33,928 nucleotides of DNA from positions 1-33,928 of the forward strand of contig JACQGL010000154.1 of NCBI GenBank assembly GCA_016199525.1. Direction: 5' to 3'. Below are positions 7,265-28,502 of this stretch, piece by piece; position 1 is the stretch's first letter, and the number at the start of each line of letters is the position of its first letter. The position numbers were made by a program, and so were the translations under genes. The notes under the pieces were generated by a model that saw only the letters and a list, made by a program, of their open reading frames with translations, was not told the DNA's origin and searched no databases. Source of the stretch: Armatimonadota bacterium. GTDB taxonomy: Bacteria > Armatimonadota > SYMT01 > JACQGL01.

Positions 7265-7932
7265 GCAGCGGCGATATTATAGCAAACCCCATCCGCCCGC
7301 GCAAGCGAAACGCGGCGGAGGTCAGGGTGGACGCATCTAAATATGGGAACGGGTTCGGGAGCTCCGGCCGTATTGCGGGCCGTCTTTTACTCTCCGAAGT
7401 TCCGATAGGCCTGCTTTGTTGCTGACTGAGCATTTTGCCTCCCTGCCGGATCCGCCCGTACGAGACGACCCCCTCCCTGGAACGGCTGATCCGGGAGGTG
7501 CGGCGCAGGACCGATCTCATGGGGAGCCTTGGCGGGCCGGGTGAGTTGCGACCGCCCTTACGGGCGTATGCCCGCCTGCTGTTTGGCGTTTTTTTGCGCA
7601 TCTCAAGCGGTAGAGGGTCTGCGCCGTACCGAGACATTCCACCCTCCTGCGCGTCCTGGCCCGCTGGCATCCTACCTCCTGGTGAAGACGCGTGACGCTG
7701 CTCCTGCGGCACGCAGGGGCGTGCCCATGATCGCATGAACTCCCATCATGGAGTGCCTCACTAACCCGGTGTAACAATACCCCGGCGCTCTGGACATGAG
7801 GGTGGCGTGTGATTCCGCGTGGACCGCTCTGTCCCGTGATCTTTCTGCCAATGGTGCCGATCGGTGGTGGCTTTCTGGTCCTGGCACCGACCTGTTCTCT
7901 ATTCCCTGCTCGAGGAAAGTGAGGTAGCGCGC

Positions 7933-9621
7933 ATGGATCCGCGAATGAAGCTGGCTCTGTGCGCGCTCGGCGCGTCGCTGGTGCTGGGCGTGCTCGGCGA
8001 TGCCTTGCTGCGGGCCACTCCCTGGGGCCTCAATGTCGGTCTCTGGGTCGGATCGCTGGCGGTGGCGGCCACGGGGCTGATCCGCTGGTCCCGACACCCA
8101 GTCGGGACGGTAGCGGGCAGTGTGTGCTGGCTGGCCTTGCCAGCGCTGTTCTTTGCCTTTGCCCTGGCATGGCGGGACTCCCCCACGCTTAACTGCCTGA
8201 GCGGCCTGGGGCTGCTCATCACCCTGGCGCTCGCCGCCCTGCGGGCACGCACGGGACAGCTCGCCGTGGCGGGGATCATGGAGTACACGCTGGGGCTCTG
8301 TGTCGCGGGAATCCGGGCAGCGGTGGGGATCTTCCCGCTGGCCAGCCACGATATTCAGTGGAAAAGCCCGCCGTGCGCCGGCTGGTCCGATAAAGCAAAG
8401 GCGGTGGCGCGCGGGATCGCCCTCGCCCTGCCGCTGCTGCTGCTGTTTGGCGCCCTCTTCGCGGCGGCGGACGCGGTATTCGCGGATATCGTCCGCAACC
8501 TCTTTGATTGGCGGCTTGACGACCTGTTGGACCGTCTCTTCCTGATCGCTTTCTGGGCCTGTGTGAGCGGCGGCTTTCTACGCGAGTTGCTGCTGCGCCA
8601 GCAGATCCCGAAAGCATTCGGGACCCATCCCGACCGAGCCGGGACGGCGGCCGCCAACGGCGCGAGGGGCGGTCGTGATCACTGTCCACGGCTTGGGATG
8701 CCTGCCGTGAGCCCCAGCGGTGGTCAACGGACCCCGTTGGCGGCGGAATCAGCACCGGAGCCGGTTGTCTCCCTGGGCATCGTCGAGATCGGGATTGTGC
8801 TGGGCGCGCTGAACGTCCTGTTCCTGGCGTTCCTGCTCGTGCAGTTCCGCTACTTCTTCGGCGGCGCGGCGCTCGTCCAGGCCACCATTGGGCTAACGTG
8901 GGCGGAGTATGCGCGGCGCGGCTTTTTCGAGCTGGTCACCGTCGCCGCGCTGGTGCTGCCCGTGCTGCTACTCGCGCACTGGCTGCTGCGCCCGGAGCGT
9001 CCGGCGCACGAGCGTCTGTTTCGCATGATGGCGGTGGCACTGGTAGGGATGCTGTTCTTGATTATGGCGTCCGCGCTGGGGCGGATGCGCCTCTACACGC
9101 AGCAGTTCGGCCTCACCGAGTTGCGGCTGTACACCGTTGCCTTTATGGGCTGGCTGGCGGCGGTCTTCTTCTGGTTCCTGGCCACCGTGCTGTGCGGCCG
9201 GCGAGAGCGGTTCGCCTTCGGAGCGCTGATCGCCGGGCTGGTGGCGATCGCCCTCCTCCACGGGGTGAACCCGGACGCGGTGATCGTGCGCGCCAACACT
9301 CGCCGCCTGGAGGCGGCGCCGGCGTTCGACGCCTGGTATGCCGCCTCGCTCAGCGCCGATGCCGTACCCGCGCTGGTGGCGGCACTGCCCCAGATGAATA
9401 CGGCAGACGGCCAGCAGGTGGCGTCCCTCCTCCTCTCCCGCTGGTCATCCCCCGAGCGGGCAGACTGGCGTACGTGGAACTGGGCGCGCGCACAGGCCTG
9501 GCGGCTGATGGGAGCGAATCGGGAGGCGTTGCAGGGGATGGCAGAAGCGAGACAGGATAGAAGTCAAGATCGCTCCGGCGCCTTCCCTACTCTGGACGGC
9601 GAGAATCCGCCCCGGCATTAA
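7933..9621 (+). CDS. DUF4173 (DUF4153-like) multi-pass membrane protein
   Basis: Many hydrophobic segments; LRPERPAHERLFRMMAVALVGMLFLIMASALGRMRLYTQQFGLTELRLYTVAFMGWLAAVFFWF and GVNPDAVIVRANTRR typical of DUF4173. Confidence 0.8.
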   Translation: MDPRMKLALCALGASLVLGVLGDALLRATPWGLNVGLWVGSLAVAATGLIRWSRHPVGTVAGSVCWLALPALFFAFALAWRDSPTLNCLSGLGLLITLALAALRARTGQLAVAGIMEYTLGLCVAGIRAAVGIFPLASHDIQWKSPPCAGWSDKAKAVARGIALALPLLLLFGALFAAADAVFADIVRNLFDWRLDDLLDRLFLIAFWACVSGGFLRELLLRQQIPKAFGTHPDRAGTAAANGARGGRDHCPRLGMPAVSPSGGQRTPLAAESAPEPVVSLGIVEIGIVLGALNVLFLAFLLVQFRYFFGGAALVQATIGLTWAEYARRGFFELVTVAALVLPVLLLAHWLLRPERPAHERLFRMMAVALVGMLFLIMASALGRMRLYTQQFGLTELRLYTVAFMGWLAAVFFWFLATVLCGRRERFAFGALIAGLVAIALLHGVNPDAVIVRANTRRLEAAPAFDAWYAASLSADAVPALVAALPQMNTADGQQVASLLLSRWSSPERADWRTWNWARAQAWRLMGANREALQGMAEARQDRSQDRSGAFPTLDGENPPRH

Positions 9622-13512: not shown

Positions 13513-14571
13513 TCAAGGGGTCCAGTCCTGATCGGCGCGCAGCCGCTCGATGAACGCGGCGCAGAGCCGACAGCCGTTCTCCAGGTCTGTCAGGGAGAGC
13601 ACCTCGCAGGGAGTGTGCATGTAGCGCAGCGCCACGGAAACCAGGCCGGTGGCCATTCCGGCCTTGTTGAGTTGCATAGCGTTGGCGTCCGTACCCGTAC
13701 CGCCGGGCGTCGCCTCCACCTGGTAGGGGATGCTCTCTTCCTCGGCCGCTTGCACGAGTCGCTCGAAAACGCGGGGGTTGATGTTGGCCCCGCGGGTGAT
13801 CACCGGCCCGCCGCCAATACGGATATCCCCTACCTTGCGCTTGTCCGCGTCGGGGTAGTCGGTGGCGTGGGTAACGTCGATGGCGATGCCAATCTGCGGA
13901 TCGACGCCAAAGGAGGCGGTGCGCGCACCGCGCAGGCCGATCTCTTCCTGGACGGTGGAGACGCTGTAGACGCCGGCGGCGATCTTTTTCCCGTGCAGCA
14001 GGCGGAGCGTCTCGGCGCACACGAAGACTGCCATGCGGTTATCGAAGCTCTTCGCTACCGCCAGTTCGTTTGCCAATCGATCGAAGGGCACGTGGATAGT
14101 AACAGGATCGCCGATGGCGACCCGCTGCGCGACGGCCTCGCGGCCTGAAAGCCCCACGTCAATCCAGAGGGTGTGCAGTTCCGACTTCTTGCGCCGCTCC
14201 TCCTCGTCCAGCAGGTGGATGGCGCGCTTACCGATCGTGCCGCGCAGGGGGCCGGACCGGGTGTGCACCGTTACCCGCTGTCCCACGACGATCTCCGCAT
14301 CCCAGCCGCCTACCGGCCCGAAGTAGAGGTAGCCCTCATCGTTGATGTGGCGCACCAGGAAACCGATCTCATCCGCGTGTCCGGCCAGCATCACGCGCGG
14401 CTGGCCGTCCGGATTGAGCGCGGCGATGGCATTGCCCATCACATCGATGCGCACAGACTCGCTGTAGGGCTGAACGTAATCGCGGAACAGGGACTGGACC
14501 GGCTGCTCATATCCGGAGGGAGCGCCGGTCTCCACCAGAACCTTCAGGAATTCGAGTGATTCTTCGCGCAT
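13513..14571 (-). CDS. M42 family metallopeptidase
   Basis: SGYEQPVQSLFRDYV, VMLAGHADEIGFLV, SFDNRMAVFVC, VSTVQEEIGLRGARTASF, DVTHATDYPDADK: M42/FrvX metal-binding motifs. Confidence 0.93.
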   Translation of the reverse strand: MREESLEFLKVLVETGAPSGYEQPVQSLFRDYVQPYSESVRIDVMGNAIAALNPDGQPRVMLAGHADEIGFLVRHINDEGYLYFGPVGGWDAEIVVGQRVTVHTRSGPLRGTIGKRAIHLLDEEERRKKSELHTLWIDVGLSGREAVAQRVAIGDPVTIHVPFDRLANELAVAKSFDNRMAVFVCAETLRLLHGKKIAAGVYSVSTVQEEIGLRGARTASFGVDPQIGIAIDVTHATDYPDADKRKVGDIRIGGGPVITRGANINPRVFERLVQAAEEESIPYQVEATPGGTGTDANAMQLNKAGMATGLVSVALRYMHTPCEVLSLTDLENGCRLCAAFIERLRADQDWTP

Positions 14572-14853: not shown

Positions 14854-15424
14854 TAATTGAGGATCGTCCCCGAAGACGGACAAACCGCCCTCGAAAACTA
14901 CCGTGGCGCTGTCGCGCTCGCCGGAGCGCCGCCTCATCACCGGTCTCCCGCTACCCGGCTCTGCGGCGACGCCTGATCTGCGGACGCTTCAGTTACCGAC
15001 GGGAATTTTCCCACCCCAGAGGTCGGTTAAACTCCATCTTTTTGCCCTGCTCCCCGCCCTTCAACGGCCGGGTCCGGAGGCGGCAGCAGATCCCGCCCAA
15101 GGAGCACCCCTACAGCTAGCACGCGGGCAGAGCGGAAGCCCACCTGTAGGCGGGCGTCTGGTGATCACGGCGCAGAAAGGCCGTTGACCAGTTCCCTTGC
15201 CGCCACGCGGGGAACAAGCGCCTCCCGCGGCGTGCGGCGAACGGCACGGACAGGGCGCGAGGGTGGCGGCTCTCCTTGAGCTTGATCGTGGGATAATTCA
15301 CCGGTAATGGGTTCTGGCTGATCCTGTACGCAGGGAAGGGCGTGCGGAGACCCCGAACGTCCCGAGACCCTCGGGGGCCGAGCGTCCCGAGGACCTCGGG
15401 GCTTTCGGGGCTGGATTTATCGCT

Positions 15425-18460: not shown

Positions 18461-20479
<2,019 letters not shown>

Positions 20480-26498: not shown

Positions 26499-26636
26499 TG
26501 CTGGACTCCTCTCCGGATGAAGCGCAGGCATCCCATACCCATACGGGACCGTAAGGTCGGGCCGTATGGCTTGCCTGCACGCCGCACTCTTCCCGCGTCC
26601 CGAAAGCCTTCGGGGCGCTCCAGGAAGCCTCCCCCG

Positions 26637-27641: not shown

Positions 27642-28502
27642 CTATCCGCCCGCGCGCCCCGCAGTCCCGAAAGCTTTCGGGACGCCAGGACGCCGCACTT
27701 GACGGGCTGCTTCCCATTCCTCCACCAGGGGCGGCAAGCCGGCGAGGGAGGGCAGAACCACGTCCGGCTGGCACTCCTCCGGAAGGCCGGGCACCTCCTC
27801 CGCCCTCGTCACCCCGGTTAGGACCAGGGCGGTGCGCATGCCCAGTCGTTTGGCGCCCAGGATGTCGGTCTCAGCACGGTCCCCCACCATCAATGCCTCC
27901 TCCGGCGCCGCGCCCGTTACGCTCAGGATGAGCCGCCAGGGGTGGGTCTCCGGCTTGCCAACCGTCACCGGTTCCACACCCGTGGCGCAGGCCAGCGCGG
28001 CGACCATCGCGCCGCCGCCGGGGATTTCGCGCCCCCCCTCGATCGGGTAAGTTGCATCGCGGTTGGTGGCGATGAACGCCGCCCCACCGCGCACCTGGTC
28101 GTAGGCCCGTGCCAGCCGCGCGTAGGTGAGCTTGCGGTCGAGCCCCACGACCACGTAGTCCGCCTGCTCCTCCGTATCGTCGGGGAGGACCCGCAGCCCC
28201 GCGAGCGCCAGCTCCTCCGCCATACCCTCCTCGCCGATGGTGTAGACCGTTCGCCCGGCGGCCCCGCGCTCGCTCAGGTAGCAACCGGTGACGTGGGAGG
28301 AGGTCACCACCTGGTCCGGCCGCGCGGGTATGCCCATGCGCGCCAGTTTCTGCGCGTAGTGGCGCCGCGAACGGGTGGAATTGTTGGTGAGAAAGAAGAG
28401 CGAGTAGCTGCGCTGGGAGAGGAGGTTCAGGGAGGGGACGGCTCCGGGGACGGGCGTTTCTCCCCGGTAGACGACGCCGTCCAGATCAAGAACAATGACC
28501 AA
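27642..28502 (-). CDS. HAD-IIA family hydrolase (NagD-like)
   Basis: TTG start with AAGGAG upstream; LVIVLDLDGVVYRGETPVPGAV, FFLTNNSTRSRRHYAQKLARMGI, FIATNRDATYPIEGGREIPGGGAMVAAL, LMVGDRAETDILGAKRLGMRTALVLTG. Confidence 0.92.
   Translation of the reverse strand: MVIVLDLDGVVYRGETPVPGAVPSLNLLSQRSYSLFFLTNNSTRSRRHYAQKLARMGIPARPDQVVTSSHVTGCYLSERGAAGRTVYTIGEEGMAEELALAGLRVLPDDTEEQADYVVVGLDRKLTYARLARAYDQVRGGAAFIATNRDATYPIEGGREIPGGGAMVAALACATGVEPVTVGKPETHPWRLILSVTGAAPEEALMVGDRAETDILGAKRLGMRTALVLTGVTRAEEVPGLPEECQPDVVLPSLAGLPPLVEEWEAARQVRRPGVPKAFGTAGRAGG
27664..27683. repeat. 20-bp perfect palindrome, member of a dispersed TCCCGAAAGCnTTCGGGA repeat family
   Basis: GTCCCGAAAGCTTTCGGGAC; related copies at 8606-8623 (TCCCGAAAGCATTCGGGA) and 26598-26615 (TCCCGAAAGCCTTCGGGG). 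Confidence 0.8.

Follow-up and report, generated by a model that had tools for sequence, protein, structure and literature searches.

A lineage-restricted, high-copy family of short hairpin palindromes within and between genes of an Armatimonadota genome

How does one short palindrome come to lie in frame in unrelated genes, and again between genes, of the same stretch of bacterial DNA? The question arises in a 33,928-bp contig of an Armatimonadota genome (the window), in which the first-pass annotation had noted a palindrome encoding PKAFGT in a membrane protein gene (8606–8623), the same palindrome encoding VPKAFGT in a HAD gene (27664–27683) and an intergenic one at 26598–26615. All three are present: TCCCGAANGCNTTCGGGA matches exactly at 8606, where the full reading is IPKAFGT, and at 27665, and with a single mismatch at 26598, between two genes, whereas 0.26 matches at three or fewer mismatches are expected in the window (Table 1). 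We consider it likely, with a probability of roughly 0.75, that these copies belong to a lineage-restricted, high-copy family of non-autonomous mobile hairpin palindromes of 17–18 bp that are REP-like without the usual terminal tag.

Table 1. Family members in the window and features of the gene that carries the 8606–8623 copy
Feature	Position	Strand	Sequence	Context or basis
18-bp palindrome, T-type, loop variant AGCA	8606..8623	.	TCCCGAAAGCATTCGGGA	In frame as I-PKAFG-T, DUF4153 gene
Decayed second copy of 17-bp class, one stem mismatch, four bases 3' of first palindrome	8628..8644	.	TCCCGACCGAGCCGGGA	Inferred from family definition
Extra loop between two helices, probably disordered, about 45 residues beyond closest orthologue	8600..8763	+		Orthologues; pLDDT
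11-bp perfect inverted repeat bounding remainder of insert	8650..8744 (arms 8650-8660/8734-8744)	.	GCCGCCAACGG / CCGTTGGCGGC
Host gene, DUF4153 family membrane protein	7864..9621	+		Pfam
17-bp class member	18506..18522	.	TCCCGACTGCATCGGGA	Encodes IPMQSG, C-terminal tail of DinG-like helicase gene
Mixed-type copy	26598..26615	.	TCCCGAAAGCCTTCGGGG	Between two same-strand genes
T-type copy	27665..27682	.	TCCCGAAAGCTTTCGGGA	In frame as VPKAFGT, C-terminal tail of HAD-family gene

A high-copy hairpin family

The source is one draft genome of 3.74 Mb in 266 contigs, at 88% completeness. A genome-wide search, which the first-pass annotation had proposed, returned 332 places within two mismatches of the palindrome, versus 3 for a reversed control. 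At one mismatch or fewer there are 195 places in this genome versus 0–3 in each of 60 relatives, and with a free N6 interior 164 versus 0–10 in each of 290 relatives from the phylum; the nearest genomes compared share only the order, and 'lineage-restricted' is meant no more finely than that. We found no exact copy of the palindrome in viral contigs, and 218 kb from the two relatives of the same order yielded no comparable hairpin family built on different arms.

Family statistics were taken from 1.50 Mb (40% of the genome), in which a home-made hexamer model called 1,415 genes (83% coding). This sequence contains 224 hairpins with the common arms TCCCGA/TCGGGA and interiors of 5 or 6 nt. Arms of TCCCGA enclose a 5-base interior in 65 hairpins and a 6-base interior in 95, other permutations of the hexamer giving three or fewer, and CCCG...CGGG is enriched at spacings of 7 and 8. 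In the six-base class the interior is AAGCTT, free at a single position of the loop (AGCN: T in 90, G in 20, C in 8 and A in 5 cases). The five-base class is mostly a GNA triloop closed by a C-G or T-A pair, as in 49 of the 69 paired cases (8.6 expected); loops of this kind give DNA hairpins unusual stability. As DNA, the hairpins have predicted stabilities of −6.8 to −9.6 kcal/mol (z about −3 to −4).

The outer pair distinguishes two types, the T-type (T...A, that is, TCCC...GGGA), to which the 8606–8623 copy belongs, and the C-type (CCCCGAAAGCTTTCGGGG), an 18-bp CCCC...GGGG subtype. The family consensus is R-TCCCGA-(A-AGCN-T or C/T-GNA-G/A)-TCGGGA-Y, in which most copies have an R next to the 5' arm and a Y next to the 3' arm; T-type flanks otherwise share little. 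Exact copies number 65 and copies with one mismatch 29. Of these 29 single substitutions, 18 change one of the two loop positions, which indicates a constant stem around a variable loop.

Copies are divided almost evenly between genes (112 of 224, 99 of them in genes of at least 150 codons) and intergenic regions (111), with one across a gene edge, as the first-pass annotation had anticipated for a repeat family found inside and between genes. By length, density is 0.09 per kb in genes versus 0.44 per kb between them. Copies also cluster, with 16 gaps shorter than 100 bp versus 3.3 by chance. Genic copies occur in all three frames and yield different peptides; their hosts include the genes for alanine racemase, LigA, MoeA, MurC and NuoF, where the elements sit in variable loops with a net gain of 0 to 6 residues. 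Two long proteins stand out for the number of elements that they carry: one of 1,133 amino acids with an N-terminal FAD-binding match has six (L090:16600-19998), and one of 1,259 amino acids has several (L095:2786-6562).

The insert in the DUF4153 protein

The window gene had been named DUF4173 in the first-pass annotation; Pfam instead assigns it to DUF4153 (PF13687, E = 6.6e-75). Matches to its orthologues across the phylum mostly break between residues 243 and 300, and the closest orthologue has 46 residues where the window protein has 91. Among 21 orthologues from other phyla the loop is absent in 18, and 3 have an unrelated long loop in the same place. The hydrophilic stretch of about 50 residues that the first-pass annotation described as starting at the palindrome is real and, in the orthologue comparison that it had suggested, missing from most orthologues. 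The palindrome itself, however, encodes just 6 of the approximately 45 extra residues. The decayed second copy adds about 6 more; the two together cover about 13 residues of the insert, and the remainder is other sequence with the 11-bp inverted repeat.

An AlphaFold2 model of the window protein has pLDDT below 50 at residues 247–260 and 268–296, between two helices. When the insert was searched for elsewhere in the genome, the matches listed were essentially those of the palindrome itself. The three orthologues with a loop of their own are of an acidobacterial type (L157, L176 and L178); this long hydrophilic loop is unrelated and lies exactly at the position of the window insert, and the site therefore tolerates insertions. 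The insert resembles the 'extended' inserts around RPE-4 of Rickettsia (PMC3767692).

Evidence for insertion

Three pairs of occupied and empty paralogous sites, all C-type, differ by exactly 22 bp (L008 and L109 versus L016; L010 versus L016, in which the empty copy reads CAGT; and L091 versus L060). The 22 extra bases consist of the 18-bp palindrome and a second CAGG/CCTG, and the flanks overlap by four bases in the empty copy. Although any single pair could alternatively reflect a deletion between CAGG repeats, the three comparisons show that the C-type subtype has inserted into these sites. Among the 38 C-type or mixed copies that lie between genes, 18 have an exact 4-bp direct repeat on their flanks, versus 5.0 with shuffled right flanks, and nearly all of these repeats are CAGG or CCTG. 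The data fit either a 4-bp target duplication or the insertion of a palindrome-plus-CAGG unit behind a CAGG target. Because a 22-bp insertion should shift the frame, C-type copies would be expected mostly between genes if frameshifting copies are removed; C-type or mixed copies are intergenic in 38 of 47 cases, compared with 31 of 76 for the core T-type.

For the T-type, the subtype of the 8606–8623 copy, and for the 17-bp class, the evidence is from protein comparison, which supports insertion for the wider family; empty sites were found for the C-type only. Relatives have orthologues of alanine racemase, LigA, leucyl aminopeptidase and MurC, but these sites, like the others, were compared with solved homologues. 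Judged against these distant homologues, residues have been added at the element site in MoeA (+6), leucyl aminopeptidase (+5 to 6), LigA (+3, a C-type element), MurC (+2 to 4), NuoF (+2) and phytoene desaturase (+2). In alanine racemase, an FGGY kinase and molybdopterin dehydrogenase the alignments are ambiguous and there are no clear added residues, and the paralogues L011/L074 and L023/L083 look like replacement rather than clean insertion. A 3-bp duplication at 7 of 45 genic T-type copies (2.3 expected; P = 0.003, uncorrected for many tests) is marginal, and no target duplication was detected at copies of the 17-bp class in the 1.5 Mb. We rejected a variable target duplication common to all classes, as the pooled 4-bp signal came almost entirely from C-type copies with CAGG or CCTG.

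Relation to known repeats

The first-pass annotation had likened the palindrome to the Rickettsia palindromic elements (RPEs). As in RPE-1 to RPE-3, repeats are read in frame in conserved genes and in exposed loops, and some edge longer inserts (PMC3767692). The likeness extends to insertion without destruction of reading frames, given that half of the copies lie in called genes, in all three frames, and that the DUF4153 protein has an extra loop. Membership does not follow. RPE-1 to RPE-3 are units of 100–150 bp (PMC3767692), whereas the units here are 17–18 bp and encode about six residues; the sequence common to copies ends at about 20 bp, beyond which the flanks hold little information. 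Nor is there a conserved CGTC tag, and among the genomes tested the family is restricted to this lineage. Our best reading is that it works like the RPEs without being one of them.

A second close relation is to CGTC-tagged REPs. To this group belong dRS3 of Neisseria and RPE-4/RPE-6 of Rickettsia, and it has intragenic copies and no known transposase (Di Nocera et al. 2013, PMC3733652). Like these REPs, the present palindromes form short hairpins in which the arms are perfect and conserved and the small loop varies, and they occur at high copy number and also in genes; a search for Y1_Tnp in the 88% complete genome gave no match. The present family differs in sequence and lineage, in having CAGG repeats beside its C-type copies, and in lacking a conserved CGTC tag or CCA-type tail: of 215 copies, 5 have CGTC no more than 6 bp away on the 5' side of an arm, and 76 have the overlapping form CG|TCCCGA at either end. 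Its arms, (R)TCCCGA(N) around a loop of 3 or 4 nt, also depart from the 8–9-bp stem starting with A-T pairs and the 4–5-nt loop of CGTC REPs. GTAG REPs moved by RAYTs are likewise short hairpins that are species-specific, mostly intergenic and in some cases intragenic (PMC2817692); here, in contrast, there is no GTAG tag (9 of 215 copies within 6 bp) and no Y1 transposase in the 88% complete genome. Untagged REP-like families exist in other bacteria (PMC3733652). The family is thus a member of the class of short palindromic repeats, with the high copy number and conserved hairpin of that class and with occupied and empty sites for the C-type only, and its nearest systems are the CGTC-tagged REPs and the RPEs.

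Alternative explanations and proposed mechanism

A mobile family is not the sole way to fill a genome with palindromes. HIP1 of cyanobacteria is a very short perfect palindrome present in high copy number within and between genes, and it is not known to insert. By analogy with what has been suggested for HIP1, the palindromes could be binding sites for a host protein with a role in the nucleoid, repair, partition or methylation, made and kept by selection on point substitutions. Perfect stems in unrelated flanks and the scarcity of decayed copies fit this proposal, as do the genic sites with no net gain of residues (alanine racemase, FGGY kinase) and the replacement-like paralogues. Selection on substitutions would leave unexplained the three 22-bp empty sites and the residues added in several proteins, which set the family apart from HIP1, and also the clustering of copies and the pairing of one arm sequence with loop classes of two different lengths. 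We therefore regard a host-selected site as unlikely. A model of uptake signals or half-sites was rejected: only 38 half-sites occur away from the palindromes, roughly half of which are themselves decayed palindromes, and they do not form pairs.

If the family is mobile, the familiar agent would be a RAYT whose gene has been lost or falls outside the assembled part of the genome. Short hairpins, intergenic enrichment, a tetranucleotide beside C-type copies and the 88% completeness of the genome speak for such a classical REP family. However, no match to PF01797 (Y1_Tnp) was found in the 88% complete genome, in searches in which control genomes gave matches; RAYTs are described as always flanked by REPs (PMC2817692), and here there is neither a Y1 gene flanked by repeats in the 88% complete genome nor, at nearly all copies, a GTAG tag. 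This makes the RAYT explanation quite improbable. In the same 88% complete genome we found no TnpB and no reverse transcriptase (RVT_1), and a MITE with an autonomous parent sharing its terminal inverted repeats was rejected because no pair of half-palindromes lies 60–4,000 bp apart in the 1.5 Mb. It is very improbable that the palindromes are RNA hairpins acting as terminators or attenuators: the stability of the hairpins and their intergenic enrichment would suit that role, but half of the copies lie inside genes, along their whole length, no T-run follows the copies 3' in the listed flanks and only 16 of 100 placed intergenic copies fall between convergent genes, a setting that holds 11% of intergenic bases, which amounts to no convergent bias. 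A conserved protein motif, for which the shared PKAFGT of the 8606–8623 and HAD copies might speak, is already refuted by the use of three frames for different peptides and by the copies outside genes, as is a chance repeat by the 332 versus 3 control matches.

For the preferred reading, a family of mobile hairpins, the unchanging stem, together with the loop types and the tetranucleotide, suggests that an enzyme acting in trans may recognize the unit in its folded, single-stranded form and spread it. The family is probably selfish. The main palindrome is free of stop codons in all frames, and for this reason copies that keep the frame, with a net length that is a multiple of three, could survive in genes as short peptides such as SRKLSG, PKAFG and PESFR, presumably in exposed loops or at protein ends. 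More tentatively, the 18-bp palindrome may insert at CAGG with duplication, through an enzyme outside the RAYTs and the other IS200/IS605 relatives. It would be one of the smallest mobile units described, with the T-type and 17-bp forms inserting short peptides in frame genome-wide; we hold this fuller version to be possible but doubtful.

Intragenic REPs are already known, but there is no accepted mechanism for families that are untagged or that lack a candidate transposase. The present family, with its clean empty sites and fixed tetranucleotide, its loops of the stable-hairpin type and its many genic copies in essential enzymes, makes both the spread of transposase-less palindromes and the tolerance of proteins to them testable. 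Recurrences of SRKLSG, PKAFG and PESFR in annotated proteins of this lineage should be read as a DNA repeat, not a protein motif.

Other repeats and structures

Several composite repeats of the form GTAGCG-CAGGCATCCTGCCTG-...-CGCTAC carry one or two hairpins in differing arrangements (L019 12496-12568, L024 3109-3181, L039 4247-4313, L074 8075-8119 and L093 3012-3056). Another short palindrome, (G)CCCGTACGGG(C), has 42 copies in the 1.5 Mb (for example, in L008 near 1453); its 10-mer CCCGTACGGG was counted 24 times in the first 593 kb versus 3.2 expected. The contig L016 ends in a 31-bp foldback (13837-13916) centred on an element inside an IS5-like transposase gene; the foldback may have arisen in assembly or may be a genuine hairpin junction. 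Within the window, two imperfect hairpins, TCCCGAGACCCTCGGGG and TCCCGAGGACCTCGGGG, lie 25 bp apart upstream of a gene (15360-15401) and are perhaps local structure rather than members of the family.
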